NCBI RefSeq assembly: GCF_030316135.1
Contig: NZ_CP128185.1
Location: 3,348,001-3,412,000, forward strand
From: Aliiglaciecola sp. LCG003
GTDB lineage: Bacteria > Pseudomonadota > Gammaproteobacteria > Enterobacterales > Alteromonadaceae
DNA: 64,000 bases
Direction: 5' to 3'
The notes under the pieces are model-generated. The model worked only from the letters and a program-made list of their open reading frames with translations. It searched no databases and was not told where the DNA came from. This document shows positions 1 through 46,324 of the stretch, piece after piece (positions within the stretch are counted from its first letter, which is position 1; every line of letters begins with the position of its first letter). The position numbers and the translations under genes are program-made.

Positions 1-947
1 GATTGAGCTTCCAAATGTATTTGCTGGGCAGCGCGTTCCGGTTGATAGCTGTTTTGCTGACGCTTGTAACTGCGAATTGCCCCAACCAAAAGCTGTAACT
101 CTTGCTCATGCTCGACCCGATTAACATCTACGCTGGCGGGCTGGATAACACTTGGAGCCTGATTGAATAGCATAGGCACTTGTGACAATCGACAGTAATT
201 GATAGGGGTAAAATCAGCTGAATGTTCCATGTGCAGTAAAAAGCCTTTGATCAGCCTGGTGCGTCCACGAAACTCGCGGAAACGTCCCAGTAACGCCAGT
301 AATCTTGCCTGAACAATAGATAGCTCTTGAGTCACTCGTGAGAAATTATGCTGTAGGGTGACTATCAGCAAATGTCGAAGTTCCCGGTGATTGGCGGCAA
401 TTTCACTTAATTCATCAAAGCGAAACATCTCTAACTGGTTGAGCAACTCAGAAACTTGCGATTGGGCCAATTGGTTTTCGCGGATTTTTGCATCAATAGA
501 GGATACATAACCGAACTCATTATTGATTCGACTAAATAAAACCCGCACATTATTGGCCAGCGACTCCGTCAAACTGTAAACATGTTCGGTTAAATCCGAC
601 AAGTGAGCTTGAGATTCAGCAAAGCGCTGATGTTGCAATGCTTCTTTATAATGCTCAGCCAACGTCTTTAAACTACTAAGGGTCGAGCCTATATTAGCGT
701 CGATCTGACGATTTCGCTCATCCTGCAGGCTGCCTTCCAATAATTGCCGCACGGCATTTTTCAGGCGTAGATCGGATTCAGCTTCCGGTCTCCATAAAAT
801 CCCTTGCTTGATCAAACTATCAATTAGCTTAGGACTAAATTTCGATTCATCTAAGCTACCGGACAAATAAACCTGCATGATCAGGTCAGCATGTCGGCTC
901 AGAGCGTTGAGCAGCTTAACCCCTGCCTGTAGCATGTTTTGGTTCAT
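1..947 (-). CDS. MksF/JetA-like kleisin subunit, partial (C-terminus outside window)
   Basis: My own translation of the minus strand from ATG at 947-945 stays open to the window edge (at least 315 residues, beginning MNQNMLQAGVKLLNALSRHA). It is a helical, Glu/Gln/Leu-rich protein without catalytic motifs. It starts on an ATGA overlap with the stop of the MksE-like gene, so it is translationally coupled as the third gene of the SMC operon. By position, size and character it should be the kleisin-like partner (MksF in MksBEF, JetA in Wadjet) that bridges the SMC heads. The assignment rests mainly on context and general helical composition, not on a signature motif. The 3' end, and any fourth gene such as a JetD-type nuclease, lie beyond base 1. 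Confidence 0.55.
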   Translation of the reverse strand, partial: MNQNMLQAGVKLLNALSRHADLIMQVYLSGSLDESKFSPKLIDSLIKQGILWRPEAESDLRLKNAVRQLLEGSLQDERNRQIDANIGSTLSSLKTLAEHYKEALQHQRFAESQAHLSDLTEHVYSLTESLANNVRVLFSRINNEFGYVSSIDAKIRENQLAQSQVSELLNQLEMFRFDELSEIAANHRELRHLLIVTLQHNFSRVTQELSIVQARLLALLGRFREFRGRTRLIKGFLLHMEHSADFTPINYCRLSQVPMLFNQAPSVIQPASVDVNRVEHEQELQLLVGAIRSYKRQQNSYQPERAAQQIHLEAQ

Positions 948-1579
948 AGCAAACTACCCTGCTGAACCGCATTCTCCGCTTGCTCTGCTAACGATAACGA
1001 TTCAGTTTCGTCGATGAATTTGATCACTTCGAACAAGTATTCAATTTTACCGGTCGCAATAAAAATTTGTTTATCTTGGTTTGGCTTTAACAGGTAGCCC
1101 AAATCCGTGAGGCGTTTAAAGACTTGTTTTATTTGTCCATCTGCCGTGCTGCTGGTTGAGCCAAACAGTTTGTAGTGAGAGATTTTCGCCAACTGCTCGG
1201 CAAATGCAGGCGTGTCTTCGATGGTACCTTGTAATTCGGTCAACCGAATTGCACTGCCCTGCGCCACTGGGACATCTGTGCCGCTAGCCTGTTGCACCAA
1301 TAATAACCACTCCACCAGCGGAACCAAGTGACTGGATATTTCTTGGAACTGACTGGTGAGCACTTTGCGCTCAGGCTCTGCTAAGGACTGATATGCGGCA
1401 TAGAATACTTCACCATCAGCCGCACTGGCCAAGGTTCGGTTAAGCACATTTAACTGGGCTTCAATCTTGTGACTGTTGCCGCTAGTTTTAATAAATCGCC
1501 ATGCATCTTCATCAGATACCTGACAAATAAAGTTTCCAGATAAAAGCTGCTCTAAAATTCTACCTTGCTCAGTGATCAT
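944..1579 (-). CDS. MksE/JetB-like condensin accessory protein
   Basis: A 211-residue protein of the size expected for the tandem winged-helix KITE subunits (MksE, JetB) of SMC-kleisin complexes. It reads as an N-terminal helical/winged region (FICQVSDEDAWRFI...), a central segment (FYAAYQSL, HLVPLVEWLLLV) and a C-terminal winged-helix-like tail with a hairpin (LTDLGYLLKP...IFIATGKIEYLFEVIKFI). MksE proteins bind the kleisin and help close the ring. The gene overlaps both neighbours by ATGA junctions (1576-1579 and 944-947), which implies equimolar, coupled synthesis. Family assignment is by size, domain feel and operon position. There is no catalytic motif to confirm it. Confidence 0.6.
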   Translation of the reverse strand: MITEQGRILEQLLSGNFICQVSDEDAWRFIKTSGNSHKIEAQLNVLNRTLASAADGEVFYAAYQSLAEPERKVLTSQFQEISSHLVPLVEWLLLVQQASGTDVPVAQGSAIRLTELQGTIEDTPAFAEQLAKISHYKLFGSTSSTADGQIKQVFKRLTDLGYLLKPNQDKQIFIATGKIEYLFEVIKFIDETESLSLAEQAENAVQQGSLL

Positions 1580-4500
1580 ATGCTGACCTCCTGTTCTGCC
1601 GCCTTGCGCTGGGCAAGTCGTTTACTAATGGAGCTGACTTTAGGTTGCACCACTTGAAGCTTGCGAGTGGTTTTATCAATCAAGTAACGATTATCAAACA
1701 AAGTCAGTACCTCTGACTCCGGATTTGGAAAGGCTCCCACCACACAAATATTATTGTTCTGACAAGCATCGAAAATCTTTTTCACATTGCTTTGATGCAA
1801 GGTACCCAATTCATCAATTGGCCAGTGAATGGTTGTATTGGCTTGGCCTCGCAACAAACGGGTAAACGCCAACAGGAACTTACACAAAATCAAATACGCC
1901 ATACCATGACTGGAAGACTCATTTAGTTGTCGGTCGGTGCGGATAACCAAATTAGAATTACCTTCTTTGATATGCAGTTCAATATCCAGCAGTTTACTAA
2001 TACCTCCGCTGAGGGCTGCACGCCCGAGGATATCCAATACTCGGCGCATACTTACCGCATAGTTGTCATCGGGTAACTCCACCGCGCCACTTTGCATCCA
2101 AGCCTGATATAGGGTGTTGAACTCGGCTAATTCCGGCCAAAATTCTAATTCTGATATACGCGACCTAATTTTCACCGCAGATTCTGATACGCCGTCCAAA
2201 AACAGTTCTTCGTCGACTTCTTTACTAATACGGTTGCTTTGGCTGGCGATACGCTTATCGATATCCTCCAACACATTATAATATTGAGTCAAATCGGCGC
2301 CAAAAATACGACCTTGTTCCCTTAGCCCATGTAGTTTTTGCGGCACCACTTCATTGAGTAATTGGGCCAAATGATTAACCATACGGCGATGATCAACACT
2401 GCGTATACCTTGGGCATTAACCACCGCACAATCTTCACGTGAGCGTTCCCATATATCTGCCAAACCTGTACCAGATTGGGCCGCGATCAATTGATCAAAA
2501 TGTTCTACGTATACTTTGATATCAGTCAGCAACCGCTCACGGGTTTGCAGTAAATCTTGGCCTTCTGAAATCCTTTGACCTATGCTTACTGTATCAAGCG
2601 TGGAGTTTGACGAACTATTAACAGTATCATCCAATTTGGGTAAGCTTAGCTTGGCCAAATTTCGATTAATGTTTTGCACGTCAGCATCTTGTTCACGGGC
2701 CAAACGCAATTCTTGTTCTAGCTGAATTTGATTGTCTTTAAATTGCTGACGTTGCTGTTTAAACTCAGCTTCCTGCTGATTTAACTTTCGCTCAGCCTGA
2801 CTAGCGGCTTTTTTTGCGCTACTGAGGTTTTTCTGCCATGTCACTTTATATCCAACAAAGTAGTTGGTATACCAGCGTTGATAATCTTTGACTTTATGCC
2901 TGTGAGTGTCGGTATAAGTGATATCTTTTTGTAATTGCTTAATATGCTTTTGCAGCCCACCAATTTCGTCCACATCAACACCACGATTGTCGAGCTCATC
3001 CGCTTTCCATTGTTCGGTTTTTTGCTTATCTTCCAGCGCCACTTGACGGGCTTTGGAGATATGCTGATCAACGGTATTGATTTTAGCTTGGGTATCGCCG
3101 ATTAATTGCTGCCAATGAAATTGATGTTCGGTCTGCGCTTCCCGTTGCTGATCTTTCAATTCCTGAATGTCATGGGTATGTTGCGACTGACACTTGCTCT
3201 GTTCAGCTTGGTTGGCAGCTAAACGCTTCTTATCTTGCAGTTTACGCTGGGACAACGCATGGGCATATTCTTGCTGAATTTGCTCTTTATCTTGCTGAGC
3301 CCGTTTACGATTTGCTTCGGCAGTTTTGCATTCACTTTCTTGACGAGCTTGCGCCAACTCCTTGTTACGTACCTCTTCACTGGCTTTGGATAATTCACTC
3401 TCAGCTTCATTTTGCACTTGCAAAGCTTGAGCAAGTTCTTCTTGGGTATCCGCTAGGCGCTGTTTCATCGATTGTTCCGATTCAGCATAGGCCGGGGTAT
3501 CTAAACTGTGCATATCAAGCTTCACGCCAAACAGGCTATCCCCATGTTCAGCTACGGCAGGTTTTAGATCTTTGCGTTTGAGCAGATCCGGATGAATAAC
3601 CTTGCCTAATGTCGTTTCCCAATCAGGACGTTCTTTGCGTAAAAATTCAAGCAGACTGTTTTCGCCTGGATAGAGCAGCGCTTCAACCTCAGATACCTTT
3701 TGTTGGGCGGCTTGGAATCGACGGCGGGCGTCTTCCAAGCGGCTATTTGATTGTGTGCGAGCTTGAACCGCTTGTTGGTATGCTAATTGTGTCTTACGCA
3801 GCGAATCACGGCTAGCATCCTCAACAATACCGGCTTCCTTTAATGTGGCGTCGAGTATATCTAACTGGCTTTGTTCAAACTCATCAAAGCCAGCGGTTTT
3901 TAAACTGGCAGATATTTCAGCCTGCTGAACTTTTAATTCATTCACACGTTGGCGATAAGTGTCCTCGACGGCACTCATTTGACTTTGATGTTCATCGCGT
4001 ATCTGTTGTAAGGCCTGCTGCTCATCACTTTTTTGGGTGGATAGAATGTCTTGAAGTTGGGCTTTTTGCTCAGAATAGGATTCTAACTCCAAGTTCAATT
4101 TTTCACTGATGTGGGCGATACGTTTATTAAAACTGGATTCAATATCTTGATGCTTGTCAGTTAGCAATGCATAGCGGGTTGATGCAGTTTCCAGTTCACT
4201 TTCCCATTGCGGCATCTGCTGCAAATTTTTCTGCAGGGTCTCAATGTCTTGTGATTGCCAATCGTCAAACTCTTGCTCAATTTGCTCTAAATCCGACTCT
4301 AATTTTTCAGCATCGGCTTTAGCACTGGATAAAGTTCGATTCAATTCATCACGGTTCGCTGTCCAATCGTTTTCGAGTTTCTTACTACCCAAGTGAGTTT
4401 CATCAACCTGTCCCTGCAATTTTAAAATATTGGCCGACAAAGCGCTGGTGTCCAGCGAAAACTGTTGCTTGATGGTGCTGAGTCTAGATTCAGTCTGGGC

Positions 4501-5277
4501 CAACTGATAGTCAGCTTGCTCCAAACGGGCAAATTCTGGACGAATGGCATCAAATTCTTTGATGAGGTGGCACTCGCTTATCCAGTCCTCAACGCGATTG
4601 CGGCTTAAACTGGAACTTGGCGGCTGTACCCCATCTTCTTCCAGAATGGCAGCGATCATTGCCTTGATGGTTTCCATTTTGCCTTCTTTGGAATGCACCG
4701 CTTTAGCAAGCTTTTCAATATGGCGTAAATGGTGGACTTGGTCGCACAAACTAAAAATTCGTGCGTAACCTAATAGCTCTCGATTATTGGCACTGTCGTT
4801 AAGAACACCGCGATCATTTTGCAATATAGCTTTGAATTCTTTGGTATTGAGTAAATTGGTCACCAGAACGTTTGAGCGTTTCAAGCTTCGAGCCAATTCA
4901 TTCATACTGACGCTGGAGTGTTCTCCGGCTTTGTTTTTAAATAAATAATCGTTTAAGTCAAAAGGTTTACCAATAAAACGGTAGTTGACACCATTGCCTG
5001 ATGACGCCAGCACAACTTGACACAAGTCATCTTCGTTGCGTGCGTACTCATAAATAATAAAACTCGACTCTCGAGGCAAATACCATTTTTCAAAACTGTC
5101 ACGGGTAGCCGGTACTACGCGGCTAGGATATTCACCATAAAAGACCGGAATCAAACGCTGCAGTGTGGTTTTGCCCGATGCATTAGTACCACAGATATTG
5201 GTGTGTCCATTGAGTTTCAATTCCACTACGCCAGGTAGATGGGTGTCGATAAGAATAATGCGGTGTAACCCAGGCAT
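1576..5277 (-). CDS. SMC-like coiled-coil ATPase (MksB/DUF3584-type)
   Basis: This 1233-residue protein has SMC architecture. The N-terminal head carries Walker A GTNASGKTT at about residues 30-38. A very long Gln/Glu/Lys-rich coiled coil runs from about 255 to 960, with a break near 535-600 (YPGENSLLEFLRKERPDWE...) that could be a small hinge. The C-terminal head has an SSHG motif near 1121 where SMCs have LSGGQ-type signatures, and Walker B TTIHWPIDELG near 1148-1158. Size and P-loop match the DUF3584 (PF12128) group of MukB/MksB-like proteins. Such complexes load on DNA and extrude loops in ATP-driven cycles; relatives act in chromosome organisation (MksBEF) or plasmid defence (Wadjet JetC). 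It is the first gene of the operon, unlike mksFEB and jetABCD where the SMC gene is third. Which role applies here is not decidable from sequence. Confidence 0.75.
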   Translation of the reverse strand: MPGLHRIILIDTHLPGVVELKLNGHTNICGTNASGKTTLQRLIPVFYGEYPSRVVPATRDSFEKWYLPRESSFIIYEYARNEDDLCQVVLASSGNGVNYRFIGKPFDLNDYLFKNKAGEHSSVSMNELARSLKRSNVLVTNLLNTKEFKAILQNDRGVLNDSANNRELLGYARIFSLCDQVHHLRHIEKLAKAVHSKEGKMETIKAMIAAILEEDGVQPPSSSLSRNRVEDWISECHLIKEFDAIRPEFARLEQADYQLAQTESRLSTIKQQFSLDTSALSANILKLQGQVDETHLGSKKLENDWTANRDELNRTLSSAKADAEKLESDLEQIEQEFDDWQSQDIETLQKNLQQMPQWESELETASTRYALLTDKHQDIESSFNKRIAHISEKLNLELESYSEQKAQLQDILSTQKSDEQQALQQIRDEHQSQMSAVEDTYRQRVNELKVQQAEISASLKTAGFDEFEQSQLDILDATLKEAGIVEDASRDSLRKTQLAYQQAVQARTQSNSRLEDARRRFQAAQQKVSEVEALLYPGENSLLEFLRKERPDWETTLGKVIHPDLLKRKDLKPAVAEHGDSLFGVKLDMHSLDTPAYAESEQSMKQRLADTQEELAQALQVQNEAESELSKASEEVRNKELAQARQESECKTAEANRKRAQQDKEQIQQEYAHALSQRKLQDKKRLAANQAEQSKCQSQHTHDIQELKDQQREAQTEHQFHWQQLIGDTQAKINTVDQHISKARQVALEDKQKTEQWKADELDNRGVDVDEIGGLQKHIKQLQKDITYTDTHRHKVKDYQRWYTNYFVGYKVTWQKNLSSAKKAASQAERKLNQQEAEFKQQRQQFKDNQIQLEQELRLAREQDADVQNINRNLAKLSLPKLDDTVNSSSNSTLDTVSIGQRISEGQDLLQTRERLLTDIKVYVEHFDQLIAAQSGTGLADIWERSREDCAVVNAQGIRSVDHRRMVNHLAQLLNEVVPQKLHGLREQGRIFGADLTQYYNVLEDIDKRIASQSNRISKEVDEELFLDGVSESAVKIRSRISELEFWPELAEFNTLYQAWMQSGAVELPDDNYAVSMRRVLDILGRAALSGGISKLLDIELHIKEGNSNLVIRTDRQLNESSSHGMAYLILCKFLLAFTRLLRGQANTTIHWPIDELGTLHQSNVKKIFDACQNNNICVVGAFPNPESEVLTLFDNRYLIDKTTRKLQVVQPKVSSISKRLAQRKAAEQEVSI

Positions 5278-25840: not shown

Positions 25841-26866
25841 TTATGCGCTCACTTGTGAGGACGTAACGCGATAGTGCTCCTGACGTGTGAGCAATATCCA
25901 GATTAAACGTGCTAAACGATGGGCGACGGCGACTGCCACTTTATTAAACGGCTTGGTAACGCGAAGTTTAGTGGCCCACAGTGATAACGGATCAGTTCTT
26001 TGCGCGGCACGACTCACGACAGACCGCGCACCATGTACCAGTTGTTTACGTAAATAACGGTCTCCGCGTTTGGTAATGCCGCCCATCTTACTGATATTGC
26101 CTGAGGCGTGTTGTTTAGGCGTCAGCCCTAACCACACGGCAAATTCTTTGGGATTATTAAACGCCTGGCCTTTATCAATGGCGGCTAAAAACGCTGAGGC
26201 ATTAATGAAACCAATCCCTGGGATGCTGAGCAATATTTTGCCACTTTCACTGTTATTAACAAAGTGATGCAATTGCTGCTCAATGGCCTTGATGCGAGAG
26301 CGTGTGTCTTCATATTCTGCCTTTAACGCGCGCATCATGGTTCTCAACTGGTTACTGCGTTGTTCGCTATCAATTACTTGGGCTAATCCTGCACACAAGG
26401 CCACGTGGCCACAAGGAAATATTACCCCAAATTCACTTAACAACCCGCGTATCTGGTTACTCAGGGCCGTTTTGTTTCTAATTAAGCGCTCTCGAATTCG
26501 ATGCAAGCAATTAATTTCTTGCTGTTGCTCAGATTTTACGGGGACAAAGCGGATATGTGAGCGCTGGCTGGCTTCTGCTATGGCAAAAGCATCGTTATGG
26601 TCATTCTTGTTGCCTCGCACAAAAGGCGTGACATGTTGGGCTGGTATAAGCTTGGTATCATGACCTAATTTAGCAATTTCACGCCCCCAGTAATGCGATG
26701 AATAACAGGCTTCCATCACCACCAACGTAGGTGGTTGTTGGCGCATAAAATCAAGTAGCTCAGTCCGTTTTAATTTCTTATTAAATTGCGGTTTAATATG
26801 TTCATTTACTCCGCACACTTGAAATACAGTCTTTGCCAAATCGATGGTAATTGTTTTAAGCTTCAT
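25841..26866 (-). CDS. IS110-family transposase
   Basis: A 341-residue DEDD recombinase. The N-terminal RuvC-like domain (DEDD_Tnp_IS110) has Asp9 (TITIDLAKT), Glu52 (VVMEACYSSHYWGREI), Asp89 and Asp92 (KNDHNDAFAI). After a helical linker (about 110-210), the C-terminal Transposase_20 domain shows LLSIPGIGFINASAFLAAI, FAVWLGLTPKQHASGN, and GGITKRGDRYLRKQLVHGARSVV, where the serine near residue 286 is the expected nucleophile partner. All key residues are present and the frame is intact, so the element may still be active. Confidence 0.93.
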   Translation of the reverse strand: MKLKTITIDLAKTVFQVCGVNEHIKPQFNKKLKRTELLDFMRQQPPTLVVMEACYSSHYWGREIAKLGHDTKLIPAQHVTPFVRGNKNDHNDAFAIAEASQRSHIRFVPVKSEQQQEINCLHRIRERLIRNKTALSNQIRGLLSEFGVIFPCGHVALCAGLAQVIDSEQRSNQLRTMMRALKAEYEDTRSRIKAIEQQLHHFVNNSESGKILLSIPGIGFINASAFLAAIDKGQAFNNPKEFAVWLGLTPKQHASGNISKMGGITKRGDRYLRKQLVHGARSVVSRAAQRTDPLSLWATKLRVTKPFNKVAVAVAHRLARLIWILLTRQEHYRVTSSQVSA

Positions 26867-41374: not shown

Positions 41375-44300
41375 ATGGCAATACGCAGCTATCACAAAGG
41401 CATATTTGGCAGTCTGGCATTGTGCAGTCATTCAGCCTTTGCTCTGGGTGAGCAAGTGTTGCAGCAGGATGCAGCCACTATCGATAAGCTACTTATCGTT
41501 ATAGGCACCACGTTTTCATTCCTGCTACTTGCCTTGATATATTTGAAATTCAGTCACAGCCGCGCCCGTAAAGCCTACGTCAAAAATACCGCTATATTAG
41601 ACCGAAAAAAACAGCTACTAGACAATTTTCATGTAGGCATGGTGCATGTCAATACTGCCGGAGCAATTCAGTACTGCAATAAATTAGCTGCGTACTACTT
41701 AGGTGACCGAGCAGAAAACTTGCTCGGCAAGACTTTACATAAGCTGCTTGATGGCCAAGATCATGAGGCATTAACTCAGTCCATTAACGCAAAAGTTCAA
41801 TGTAAATTGGCATTATCCGCCCCGATAAAAAAGCGTCAATTAGTACTCGAATTTGCCCCTCAAAAAAATCACAGCGAACAGGTTAGTTCTATCATATCGT
41901 TGTATGACATCAGTGAACAGCAAGCCATCGTAGACAAAAAAACCGAAAGTTTAGCCCTTAATAATCAGTTGCTGGACGACACAGCTATTGGCCAATTAAC
42001 ACTGAATTTAGCCGATAAGCAGTTTTACGCCAATGCAGTATTATGCAGCCAGCTAGGTATAGCTGCCGATGCTGGGCAGGGAGAATTAAAATACTTTGAA
42101 CAATTTGTACATCAGTCATCTCAATTCGCTTGGAATCAAGCTTACGGCCAACTTGAGCGAGGCGAATCGGCAAAATTTGAATGTCGTTTCGATGGACAAG
42201 AGCAAGCATTTTACGGCAAGTTAATCGGGGTTGTGGTCAAAAAAGATGACAACAATAAAGGCCTAGTCGCACAACTCACAATTAGCAATCACACCCCTGT
42301 GATTGAGCTTAAGAATCAACTCGCGGCGAGTAAGCAACAAGCTAAAGGTTTGCTCAGTAGCAGTTCCGCAGCCATGTACACCCTAGACAATCAAGGTTTG
42401 ATAACCAACTGTAATACCCCTTTTGAAATATTGTTTAATACTTCAATCGAAACGATTCGCCATCAAAATGCCAGACAGTTGGCATGCTTTAGTGATGAGT
42501 TAAAAGAGATGCAACCTGACTCTGGCCCGAATAAAGGCATAGCAAGCTATTCAATTCAATCTGGTATGGCCCGAGAAATACAAATAACCTCGCCTTTGGG
42601 AGAGCTGAAAGTCCTCAAAGTCAAAATTCAGCCGTTTCGTGACAACGAGGGTAATAATGCTGGGGCGGTCTGTAGTTTAGAAGATATCTCTGAATTGAAA
42701 AGTCTCAGTGCACAACTTGAACAAGAGCGCCAGCACTTTACCGATATCATTAATAAAGCGCCGTTAGGGATTGCCATGATTGATGATGATGATAGAGTTG
42801 TGCAGGCCAACGAAGCCCTGACGAAGCGATTAGGGCTAACTGCCCATGAACTTAGCAAAGGGTCTTTTTATCAGCTATTTAATGATGCTAAAAGTGCAGG
42901 GAAAGCAGCTAAAAAGCTACATAAAAATGGCCAGCTAACGGGCTTTCACGCCAACTTGAAAGGCAAATCTGAACAATTACACCCTAGCGAACTGAACATT
43001 GAGCTTTTCGATAAAGCCAAACAACACTTCTTATGTTGGATATCAGATATCAGCGATGAGCAGTACCAACAAGACAAATTCGAAAGCCTACTTCTACATA
43101 GCAGTATGCCAATGGCGGTGCTCAGCGGCGAGGGCTTTAATAAATTAAACCCCGCTGCTTGCGATTTTTTCCGGGTTGAGGACGAAGAAGAATTATTCGG
43201 ATACTTCCCTTATTCAAAATCGCTCAATAGTGATGATGCCGATCTCGATCAGTTAAAACAAAAAATCAGTCAGATTAATCAAGACTCAAAAGCCCTTTCA
43301 CTGATGTGGCAGCATGCTAGAGGAGAAGTGAAGCTACCTTGCCATGCTACCTTTGTGCCTATGTTCAAAGGCCAGCGCCTAGACTCAATATTGTGTATCT
43401 GGACAGATTTACGCGCAATTAAACAAGCCGACGCAGAGCGAATCGAGGCGGTTAATTTACAACAGGCCGCCGAGCGGCTGATTGTTGAGAAGCAACAACT
43501 TTTGGAAAGCAGCCAAGATTTACTCGCCAGCAAGGTGAAAAGCTTATCGGCCACCGAGTCAAAACTCAAGGCAGTGAAAGAAGATCTCAGCGACAAGGAA
43601 TCAGAAATAACTTCACTACAAGAAGCTCACGAAAGTATTGCTGAACATTTAAATAAACTGCAAGCGGATTACCAGCAAAGCCGCGAATCATTGGCTTCAA
43701 GTGAAGAAAATAATCAACAACTGGCCGCTCAATTAGAGCAGTCGTCCCGCCGAGTAAGTGGTTTAGAGCGTCAGCGCAATCAGATTGCCAATGAATTGCA
43801 ATACAGTGAAAAGAAATACAAAACCGCCCAGCAAGAGTTGGCAGACAGTGAAGCGACCGCCGAACGGCTTGAACAAGAAAGGCAGTCGCAGCAGCAGGCC
43901 ATGCAAAACTTTGAAGGTGAAATTCAGCAACTTAAACAATCTATCCAAAGCAAAGATCAACAGATTAGTGATGTCAGCGGGCAAATCAACGCCTTGCATA
44001 GCAAGCTTTCTAGCTCCAGTCAGACCAGCGAAAAATTACGCCAGCAGCTAATTAACCAGCGCAAGGCCAGTGAACAGGCAGAGTTACAACGACGAGATCT
44101 GGAGCAATCATGCTTTGTCGCCCAATCTGAGCTATCGAACAAAGCCCGTCATATCGATCACCTGCAGCACGAGATGGATAAATTTGAAGAAATGTCCAAG
44201 CAGCAAAAAGGCGATATGGAGAAACAGCAGGCGTTGTTAGAGCAAGAATTGGCTAACAAACAAACCCAATTACACAAGACCCAGAGCGCGCTGGATGAAA

Positions 44301-46324
44301 CCAAACGCCAGTCAGAGCAAGATCAAGCGGAAAAACTCATCCAGCAACAGCGATTAGAGCAGTTGCAGCAAGAGCTCAATGAAGTCGAACGACACAGCGA
44401 AGAACAGCAACAGAAAGTGGTTGAAGCAGATAAGCAATGGCGCAAGCAACAACAAGAATTACAACAAGAGTTGCAGCTTAAGCAACAACGCCTACTCGAA
44501 ACAGAACAGGTACTGAAAAAACAAGAGCTGCAAGTTGAACTGGAAAAAGACGAACGGGCTAAACAAAAACAGCTGCTCACTCGCCTGCAACAAGAGTTGG
44601 CGGAAATGGAACAACGCAGTGATGAACAGCAGCGTCAAAAACTTGAAGAGGCCAATCTGAACTGGCAACAGCAACAGCACAAGTTTGAAGCTGAACTAGA
44701 GGCTAAACAACAGAAACTGCAACAAGCCGAGCAAAACCTCAATCAAGCTAAGCAGCAAACGGAAGCGCAAAAAGCCGAGCAGCGCCAAGTAATGGAGCGT
44801 TTACAGGCTGAATTAATTGAAGTGGGAAAACGCAGCGAAGCCCACCAAAAGCGGATCATGGAAGAAGCGGATCAGCGCTGGAAGGACAAGCAAGAAGCAC
44901 TCAACAAAGAATTACAGGCCAAGCAGCAACGCTTAATAGAAACCGAAGAAGCCCTCAAACAGACTGCCGAGCAAAGCGAAATCGATAAACAAGCAAAGGC
45001 TCAGCAGCAACACTTGTTTGAGCGTCTGCAAGTTGAATTAGCTGAGATGGAGCAGCGTAGCGCTGAGCAACAACAATCTATGCAAGAAAGCGATCAGCAT
45101 TGGCAACAACGTCAACAAGAGTTGAAACAAGAAGTGGCCGCCAAACAGCAGCAACTGCAGGCGACCCGCCAGCAGCTAGATGAAAATCAGCGCCAGACCG
45201 ATGCCGAAAAGCGCGAACGCTTAGAGCAACAGCAAAAATTAGAACAACTCAAGGTCGAGCTGACTGACGTGGAAAGTCGCGCCATCAAACAAAAAGAGAT
45301 GCTCCAAGGTAGTGATGAACAATGGCGTCAGCATCACGCAGAAATTGAACAGCAAAAACAACAACTTCAACGTGCATTGCAAGAAGCCGAACAACAAAAT
45401 GCGCAGATGAAACAGAGCCTCAACCAAAGTTTAGCAGAATTGCAAAAAGCCGAGTCTCAAGTGTCAGACACCCAATCAGGAGAGCAGAAACTGCAAACCG
45501 AACTTGAACAAGCGCGCAACGAAGCGCAACAGTTGCAGCAACGCTTGAAACAACAAGAACAACAGGAATTAAAGCTGCAGCAGCAATTAGCCGACCAACA
45601 ACAAGCCTTGCAATCCAGTGAACAGAATATTCACAGCATGCAAAATGAGCAACAGCAACTAAATCAACAGTTACAAGCTATCCAGGTAGAATACGACAAC
45701 ACCAAGGCGAATTTGAATGCACAAGACAGTAATCAGTCTGAGCTGAATAGCAAACTGCAACAGCTGGAGCAGGAACTGACCAACAGCAAACAACAAATTG
45801 CCAGTAAAGAGACTGCCTTGCAAACGGCCCAAAAACAGCTTCAATCTAGCCAACAAAAGCTACAACACAAAGAAAAAGCTTTGGTCGATGCTCATAAAGA
45901 AGAGTTAAAACAAGTACAAGAACAACAACCGGAAATCAGTCAACAAGTCATCCCTGATTTTGCTAAGTTAGCTATGCCAAAAGAGCCACAAATATGGTTC
46001 GATTTGCTGCCCTATTTACAAAAAAATCCACCTAAAGTCTCCCTTGCATTGGCCTTGAGTGAAATGATGTCTGAGCTAGAACAAAGCATGCAGAACATGG
46101 ACAAGGCAGTAAATGACGATGACAACAAAGCCATTTTAATGCAGGCTCGAAAACTAGCGTTCATCGCCCGTAAAGTAAATTCAGCCCCACTGGACGATGT
46201 TGCCACCCGACTTGAAACTGATTTCCAGCAAGGCGAAGTTGATAGCATCGCCATATTCTGGCCCAGTGTAAAAGAGTCTTTGATGACCACCCTAAGAGTG
46301 ATTTACGCCCAATTGCACGCATAG
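41375..46324 (+). CDS. Giant membrane-anchored PAS/coiled-coil protein
   Basis: This 1649-residue protein has no recognised catalytic domain. The N-terminus has a signal-like stretch and a membrane helix (about 38-60). Four or five PAS-like domains follow, clearest near 75-185, 330-440, 457-560 and 572-680 (for example DIINKAPLGIAMIDDDDRVVQANEALTKRLG). A Gln/Glu-rich coiled coil spans about 690-1520 and contains tandem repeats of about 74 residues. A C-terminal helical domain of about 120 residues (PQIWFDLLPYLQKNPPKVSLALAL...) resembles an HPt-like four-helix bundle but lacks a clear phospho-histidine motif. No histidine kinase, GGDEF or EAL is present. It probably forms a long cytoplasmic rod from the inner membrane, a scaffold or sensor. 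It is monocistronic, 178 bp after fhlB. Confidence 0.75.
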   Translation: MAIRSYHKGIFGSLALCSHSAFALGEQVLQQDAATIDKLLIVIGTTFSFLLLALIYLKFSHSRARKAYVKNTAILDRKKQLLDNFHVGMVHVNTAGAIQYCNKLAAYYLGDRAENLLGKTLHKLLDGQDHEALTQSINAKVQCKLALSAPIKKRQLVLEFAPQKNHSEQVSSIISLYDISEQQAIVDKKTESLALNNQLLDDTAIGQLTLNLADKQFYANAVLCSQLGIAADAGQGELKYFEQFVHQSSQFAWNQAYGQLERGESAKFECRFDGQEQAFYGKLIGVVVKKDDNNKGLVAQLTISNHTPVIELKNQLAASKQQAKGLLSSSSAAMYTLDNQGLITNCNTPFEILFNTSIETIRHQNARQLACFSDELKEMQPDSGPNKGIASYSIQSGMAREIQITSPLGELKVLKVKIQPFRDNEGNNAGAVCSLEDISELKSLSAQLEQERQHFTDIINKAPLGIAMIDDDDRVVQANEALTKRLGLTAHELSKGSFYQLFNDAKSAGKAAKKLHKNGQLTGFHANLKGKSEQLHPSELNIELFDKAKQHFLCWISDISDEQYQQDKFESLLLHSSMPMAVLSGEGFNKLNPAACDFFRVEDEEELFGYFPYSKSLNSDDADLDQLKQKISQINQDSKALSLMWQHARGEVKLPCHATFVPMFKGQRLDSILCIWTDLRAIKQADAERIEAVNLQQAAERLIVEKQQLLESSQDLLASKVKSLSATESKLKAVKEDLSDKESEITSLQEAHESIAEHLNKLQADYQQSRESLASSEENNQQLAAQLEQSSRRVSGLERQRNQIANELQYSEKKYKTAQQELADSEATAERLEQERQSQQQAMQNFEGEIQQLKQSIQSKDQQISDVSGQINALHSKLSSSSQTSEKLRQQLINQRKASEQAELQRRDLEQSCFVAQSELSNKARHIDHLQHEMDKFEEMSKQQKGDMEKQQALLEQELANKQTQLHKTQSALDETKRQSEQDQAEKLIQQQRLEQLQQELNEVERHSEEQQQKVVEADKQWRKQQQELQQELQLKQQRLLETEQVLKKQELQVELEKDERAKQKQLLTRLQQELAEMEQRSDEQQRQKLEEANLNWQQQQHKFEAELEAKQQKLQQAEQNLNQAKQQTEAQKAEQRQVMERLQAELIEVGKRSEAHQKRIMEEADQRWKDKQEALNKELQAKQQRLIETEEALKQTAEQSEIDKQAKAQQQHLFERLQVELAEMEQRSAEQQQSMQESDQHWQQRQQELKQEVAAKQQQLQATRQQLDENQRQTDAEKRERLEQQQKLEQLKVELTDVESRAIKQKEMLQGSDEQWRQHHAEIEQQKQQLQRALQEAEQQNAQMKQSLNQSLAELQKAESQVSDTQSGEQKLQTELEQARNEAQQLQQRLKQQEQQELKLQQQLADQQQALQSSEQNIHSMQNEQQQLNQQLQAIQVEYDNTKANLNAQDSNQSELNSKLQQLEQELTNSKQQIASKETALQTAQKQLQSSQQKLQHKEKALVDAHKEELKQVQEQQPEISQQVIPDFAKLAMPKEPQIWFDLLPYLQKNPPKVSLALALSEMMSELEQSMQNMDKAVNDDDNKAILMQARKLAFIARKVNSAPLDDVATRLETDFQQGEVDSIAIFWPSVKESLMTTLRVIYAQLHA
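44356..45400 (+). repeat. Tandem coiled-coil repeats of about 74 residues inside the giant PAS protein
   Basis: Four and a half in-frame units of about 72-77 residues (about 220 bp each). Each starts LQxELxEVExRS and has a lone tryptophan about 25 residues in (KQW, LNW, QRW, QHW, EQW), followed by an AKQQxL heptad block. Units are similar but not identical, so the repeats are old enough to have diverged. Boundaries are approximate. Confidence 0.65.

Follow-up and report, generated by a model that had tools for sequence, protein, structure and literature searches.

Considering that a very large protein of Aliiglaciecola sp. LCG003 combines sensory-type domains and a long coiled coil with no recognizable output enzyme, the question raised by this locus is what such a protein does in the cell. 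We analysed it within a window of 64,000 nucleotides (the whole stretch of DNA considered here), taken from a genome that consists of a single contig of 4,411,932 bases. The open reading frame of the window has exactly the boundaries given in Table 1 and encodes the 1649 residues that the original prediction, made from the DNA letters, had claimed. It is a real gene, because relatives have an open frame that can be aligned with it and is laid out in the same way; the named relatives at 58-68% identity belong to Aliiglaciecola. Along the protein we found a start that resembles a signal peptide, a single membrane helix, five PAS domains, a coiled coil of ~840 residues and a C-terminal four-helix domain.

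Table 1. Features of the gene and its product, with positions in the window.
Feature	Residues	Positions	Strand	Basis
Whole gene	1649 aa	41375..46324	+	Open reading frame and homologues
Signal-peptide-like start (...SAFA/L)	1-24	41375..41446	+	Hydrophobic stretch and AxA-like motif
Short stub, predicted periplasmic	25-38	41447..41488	+	Topology, inferred
Membrane helix	39-57	41489..41545	+	Hydrophobicity
PAS1	88-178	41636..41908	+	Profile match and AlphaFold2 model
PAS2	206-305	41990..42289	+	AlphaFold2 model
PAS3	333-437	42371..42685	+	AlphaFold2 model
PAS4	465-558	42767..43048	+	Pfam, NCBIfam and AlphaFold2 model
PAS5, long helix leading into the coil	580-678	43112..43408	+	AlphaFold2 model
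Coiled coil	680-1518	43412..45928	+	Proline-free, heptad periodicity; a/d kept, outer positions vary
N-coil, nearly fixed length	691-940	43445..44194	+	250 aa in 31/36 proteins, 257 in 5/36
Block kept also on outer positions, immediately before the array	865-934	43967..44176	+	Conservation
Expandable array of ~74-residue repeats	941-1260	44195..45154	+	Autocorrelation, lengths, tree
C-coil, nearly fixed length	1261-1518	45155..45928	+	Lengths in 36 proteins
Most conserved 49-residue stretch of the protein, immediately after the array	1287-1335	45233..45379	+	Conservation
Pseudo-HPt domain	1538-1648	45986..46318	+	AlphaFold2 model, fold and profile comparison
Arg1592 codon, where the phospho-accepting His would be	1592	46148..46150	+	Alignment, hhalign register

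Profile searches with Pfam and NCBIfam at E<=1 placed matches in the PAS region and the coil only. No enzyme domain, whether kinase, cyclase, EAL or another, was among them, in agreement with the absence of these domains claimed from the sequence, and no hidden enzymatic domain emerged. HisKA and HATPase were likewise not found with these libraries at this threshold, the best stretches of PnpS and WalK sitting in PAS1, and neither library placed a receiver domain in the protein. Several identities whose best match lies in the coil were rejected: SMC (SMC_prok_B, 61.7 bits against a cut-off of 567, a true SMC being encoded elsewhere), crescentin (Rod_CreS, E 0.0027, 17.3 bits against a cut-off of 100) and anti-phage defence (the sole PADLOC match being DruC, at 18.4 bits).

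The single membrane helix that had been claimed is borne out by hydrophobicity (residues ~39-57). By eye, a hydrophobic stretch and an AxA-like motif precede this helix in most of the 36 proteins compared, being absent in one relative (L120), and the N-terminus of the protein looks like a cleavable signal peptide (~1-24). Three high-scoring PAS stretches were evident from the sequence with Pfam and NCBIfam, and an AlphaFold2 model that covers residues 60-720 (mean pLDDT 83) contains five helix-joined PAS units, which settles the earlier estimate of four to five; the relative placement of the units is unsure at a pTM of 0.43. In Foldseek, this model matched structures with PAS domains in tandem, FixL among them (8js5, TM 0.79 relative to target length). 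Compared with the window protein, 11 relatives are 28-34% identical in PAS1-3 and 57-59% identical in PAS4-5. Among the long forms, C554 is kept in 35 of 36 proteins and C674 in all 36. As regards a possible metal or redox site at C554/C674, inspection by eye indicated that the short forms described below vary at these positions.

The part following the PAS array had been described as a Gln/Glu-rich coiled coil of ~830 residues, and we found one of ~840 that is free of proline and shows heptad periodicity in both flanks. The longest proline-free run comprises residues 663-1518 (856 aa), and Gln and Glu account for 23.7% and 14.3%, respectively, of residues 696-1518. The hydrophobic power spectrum peaks at 3.50 residues in segment 696-1000 (3.87, the highest value among 500 shuffles being 1.64) and again in segment 1241-1518 (2.91, shuffle maximum 1.47), and no heptad signal above the shuffles was detected in residues 1001-1240, within the repeat array (0.94 versus 1.38). 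Coiled coils rise 0.1485 nm per residue, and at ~840 residues the predicted rod of >100 nm is plausible. Positional entropy over 36 rows was 0.45-0.62 bits at a/d, 1.07-1.31 at e/g and 1.82-2.06 at b/c/f. The coil flanks of 11 relatives are 58-69% identical to the window protein, compared with 44-51% for the SMC arms of the same genomes, a control in which the SMC frame of one genome (G001) is interrupted by a stop and was represented by its 815-aa piece, which lowers the C-arm figure somewhat; slipping the alignment by one heptad reduced identity to 0.05-0.17 across regions. The SMC gene of this relative (L130) has a TGA codon within its frame, which may be an error of sequencing. Judged from these alignments, selection maintains the coil as a dimeric rod or spacer, its a/d core being kept while the outer positions drift. 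Exceptions to this drift are the first turns after PAS5 and residues 865-934 and 1287-1335, which makes these blocks candidate docking sites; since the heptad register shifts within 1287-1335, the faces of that block cannot be assigned safely.

To describe how coil length varies we used 36 long-form proteins (35 plus that of the window) from ~60 genomes carrying this form; the set includes the near-copies L044 and L045 and leaves out carriers with odd frame lengths, such as G299, G382, G349, G227 and G331. Autocorrelation of the coil peaks at 74 and 147 residues. The N-coil is almost constant in length, the C-coil segment ranges from 272 to 291 aa, and the middle segment between them measures 169-173 residues in 21 of the 36 proteins, 247 in one, 318-322 in 11, 395 in one and 464 in one. 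These lengths correspond to ~171 residues plus 0 to 4 units of 74, a ladder to which 35 of the 36 proteins fit; L107, which has a very long branch, fits it poorly (middle segment of 223). A tree from which the array was excluded requires 7 changes of copy number; for the +2 state, well-supported branches force 3 gains or losses. Within one genus the copy number spans +0 to +4. Thus the length of the coil varies in whole units of ~74 residues between nearly fixed ends. A lack of conserved coil length had been named as grounds for doubting the original prediction, and this lack is borne out in part: a constant length is not kept (693-988 aa), the changes come in steps of ~74 residues, and both ends nearly keep their length.

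The separate C-terminal helical domain that had been proposed, with the suggestion of an HPt variant, was then modelled with AlphaFold2 (residues 1526-1649), which gave an HPt-like helical bundle with a pLDDT of 91.6. Foldseek placed HPt domains at ranks 1-5, no E-value being below 0.001, and VIA placed them at ranks 1-4, led by 3myf, the HPt of a Shewanella hybrid kinase (Z 13.5, rmsd 2.4, 112 residues), with 7c1i at Z 12.9 and the first unrelated helical row at Z 10.8, values to be read with the caveat that a Z of ~13 is possible between unrelated helical bundles. Given the weak Foldseek E-values and this caveat, HPt ancestry rests on sequence and fold jointly. Profile-profile comparison by hhalign with eight HPts of the same genome gave a probability of 93.8 and an E of 1.8e-7, with R1592 facing their His. 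Of 13 members, 5 match Pfam Hpt (PF01627) at E<=10, the best of them with 1e-4, the window domain scoring 13.4 bits against the curated cut-off of 24.6, and our C-terminal profile also reaches the true HPts that end two hybrid kinases (L096 and L097, E ~8e-4 each).

Across 31 long-form rows, the phospho-His site is occupied by Arg in 28 and by Lys, Ala and Gln in one each, with His in none (0/31), and the Lys at +3 of the HxxKG motif is likewise found in 0/31. The four short forms have Gln, His, Glu and Lys at this site; the sole one with His (L089) is nevertheless without the HxxK lysine. Among the helices of the domain, that of the His varies most (1.97 bits). Helix D (0.94 bits) and h2 (0.47 bits) are well conserved, helix D and the portion of WFDLLPYL that lies in h2 ranking highest. 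From the alignments and the model, the C-terminal domain is best described as having the HPt fold and HPt sequence ancestry with the phospho-acceptor lost, that is, as a pseudo-HPt, and the suggested HPt variant holds in this form, with Arg1592 replacing the His.

The C-terminal profile matches 68 of 395 Alteromonadaceae genomes at E<=1e-3, 62 of them below 1e-20, and 3 of 369 genomes in a class-wide draw, namely the window's own, one of the same family and one weak match (E 7.9e-4), which indicates from the sequences sampled that the protein family is found essentially only in Alteromonadaceae. A short form of ~900-1230 residues with fewer PAS domains is present in four examined genomes, two of which also carry the long form. 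At these short-form loci (L088, L089, L090 and L091) the gene adjoins or lies close to that of a conserved protein of one helix and 340-380 residues, which also has a coil and an end that looks rich in beta structure; 3 of the 4 loci have, nearby, genes resembling those of a small binding protein and of a porin. The weak matches within the family include, besides L096 and L097, four membrane proteins of ~1200 residues (L092, L093, L094 and L095) that have an HPt-like end without obvious phospho-His and are apparently degenerate hybrid kinases; pseudo-HPts may be common in Alteromonadaceae. In the open-access papers searched we found no paper linking Aliiglaciecola with coiled-coil, Alteromonadaceae with PAS domain and coiled-coil, or a His-less HPt domain with a coiled-coil, and the family was not met there.

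The neighbourhood of the gene offers little context for its function. A survey of homologues for partners in neighbouring genes had been proposed as a check, and it named none: among 36 loci no gene neighbour is conserved across genera, and the most widely shared neighbour family occurs in 7, all in the window's genus. The gene is stand-alone in this respect, so its partner cannot be read from context. Shared neighbours within the genus are what we take to be ccm and flagellar-type genes, those upstream being presumably fliK-like and flhB-like. A flagellar link is not supported, as fliK-like genes occur at 6 of 36 loci and flhB-like genes at 7 of 36, all in the window's genus and at none of the other loci. 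Promoter and terminator scans, made with a transcription unit of its own in mind, returned no sites near the gene. At L053 and L098, two loci from a single genus, the gene lies directly downstream of a response regulator and a histidine kinase that belong to a cluster which we assume to be a marine dedicated-sortase system. TIGR03784 is present in 41 of the 62 strong carriers (E<1e-20) and in 128 of the 333 other genomes (Fisher p 7e-5, uncorrected for kinship); since 21 of the 62 carriers are without it, the sortase system is not an obligate partner, and this link was rejected as the explanation. By eye, the window also holds an IS110-type transposase (25841-26866, minus strand) and, at 944-5277 (minus strand), an ATP-binding protein of 1233 residues that resembles SMC/MukB, next to a protein of 211 residues; the two may be an MksB/JetC-type condensin or a plasmid-defence pair.

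The best explanation, to which we give about an even chance, is a membrane-tethered, non-catalytic sensory adaptor or scaffold; rather than an enzyme, the protein is probably a tether or scaffold with a sensory role. It would form a parallel homodimer with one helix anchoring it in the inner membrane and the rest in the cytoplasm. The PAS array would sense a ligand or redox state, or might mainly dimerise, and the coil could transmit the PAS state or just keep distance. Paired pseudo-HPt heads would then bind a client ~100-150 nm off along the rod, most probably a two-component protein by its receiver or kinase part; alternatively, a new client may be bound via the conserved helix D and the WFDLLPYL stretch. 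The drift of the surface between the conserved coil blocks argues against a platform that binds many clients along the rod. The polar or cytoskeletal location that had been proposed for the scaffold is conjectural; the flagellar-type genes beside this gene do not form a conserved neighbourhood, and a FimV C-terminal domain is encoded by a separate gene of the genome. A more specific proposal, which we consider speculative and rather unlikely, is that the PAS state is passed along a rod of >100 nm to non-phosphorylatable HPt heads that dock two-component proteins far from the membrane, the reach being tuned in evolution by whole 74-residue modules, which would amount to long-range phosphate-free signalling.

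The pseudo-HPt could instead be a decoy in a phosphorelay, occupying receivers and blocking true-HPt phosphotransfer, with the PAS domains and the coil setting when and where. An HPt fold that is non-phosphorylatable on the usual His would suit this role, and the 9 HPt matches in the genome represent possible competitors. However, the His-bearing helix of an HPt normally belongs to the receiver-binding face, and its low conservation here is a poor fit with canonical receiver binding. The decoy would act like AHP6, a plant pseudo-HPt that inhibits cytokinin signalling (PMC3572949), and we judge it unlikely for the present protein. Self-assembly of the coil, laterally or end to end, into a crescentin-like cytoskeletal filament with the PAS domains and pseudo-HPt as end caps appears distinctly unlikely: the very long heptad coil, the weak Rod_CreS match and the possible assembly sites at 865-934 and 1287-1335 are consistent with it, but the crescentin score is far under its cut-off, most outer coil positions drift, the length differs between relatives and a membrane anchor is present.

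Variation in length also bears on whether the coil is a molecular ruler whose length fixes a cellular spacing, be it that from membrane to nucleoid or one that spans a division or flagellar structure. The nearly fixed coil ends and the shift of copy number in whole units would agree with such a role, which is nevertheless very unlikely, given that +0 to +4 copies within one genus (~103 to 147 nm if straight) imply that no strict length is kept. Finally, a PAS array with an HPt-like end recalls a hybrid histidine kinase minus its catalytic core, and PAS1-3 diverge fast, as might be expected of a decaying relic without present function; we find this highly improbable, as the frames are long and open in 36 of the 36 proteins examined and both the coil core and the C-terminal helix are strongly conserved.

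Pseudo-receivers on coiled coils are known localisation modules, and the pseudo-HPt literature found by our search was, judged by title, all plant work. A conserved bacterial family that joins PAS domains, a coil varying by units and a pseudo-HPt would offer a clean test of two points: whether signals from PAS domains can travel the whole of such a long coil, and whether an HPt without its acceptor works as a docking head. Its relatives, differing mainly in repeat number, form a natural rod series with which to probe what coil length does in the cell.

Among known systems, BarA/ArcB-type hybrid histidine kinases share a membrane helix, PAS domains and a C-terminal HPt fold with this protein, and the best fold matches of its C-terminal domain include hybrid-kinase HPt domains; it differs from them in having no HisKA, HATPase or receiver, an Arg for the phospho-His and a coil in the kinase's place. 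AHP6 is likewise HPt-type without the phospho-accepting His (PMC3572949); it is a separate plant phosphotransfer-type protein, whereas the domain described here terminates a giant rod in a bacterium. In Caulobacter, PodJ is a coiled-coil scaffold in a two-component pathway (PMC8980812). It binds the PAS domain of another protein (PleC), unlike the present case, where the PAS domains lie within the rod itself.

FrzS and AglZ of Myxococcus xanthus, with HubP/FimV and AHP6 the closest published mechanisms, also carry a degenerate two-component domain on a coiled coil with no catalytic output; the receiver of FrzS, which has lost the Asp that would be phosphorylated, serves as a recognition module (PMC1974792). 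This receiver is N-terminal, and the coil of FrzS has 258 residues. The protein described here differs in its five PAS domains, its membrane anchor, its coil of ~840 residues and its end of HPt rather than receiver type. With HubP/FimV it would share a predicted signal peptide, one predicted membrane helix, a long, presumably cytoplasmic spacer and a putative client-binding domain at the C-terminus, the number of spacer repeats of HubP also varying between close species (PMC12918733). Hydrophobicity and motif fit the HubP/FimV type of N-terminus at the level of sequence. Unlike HubP/FimV, whose spacer consists of largely unstructured acidic repeats, our protein has a PAS array and a coiled coil, without LysM (no Pfam match, with only ~14 residues separating the membrane helix from the signal peptide that is predicted) and without a FimV C-terminal/TPR domain (none in NCBIfam at E<=1, the C-terminus being HPt-like instead); the FimV C-terminal domain TIGR03504 has one match in the genome, at another gene. 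By these domain tests the protein is a member of neither the FrzS/AglZ, the HubP/FimV nor the AHP6 kind. By analogy, it may work in its logic like FrzS/AglZ while being laid out like HubP, with an anchor, a repeat spacer and a putative client-binding tip.
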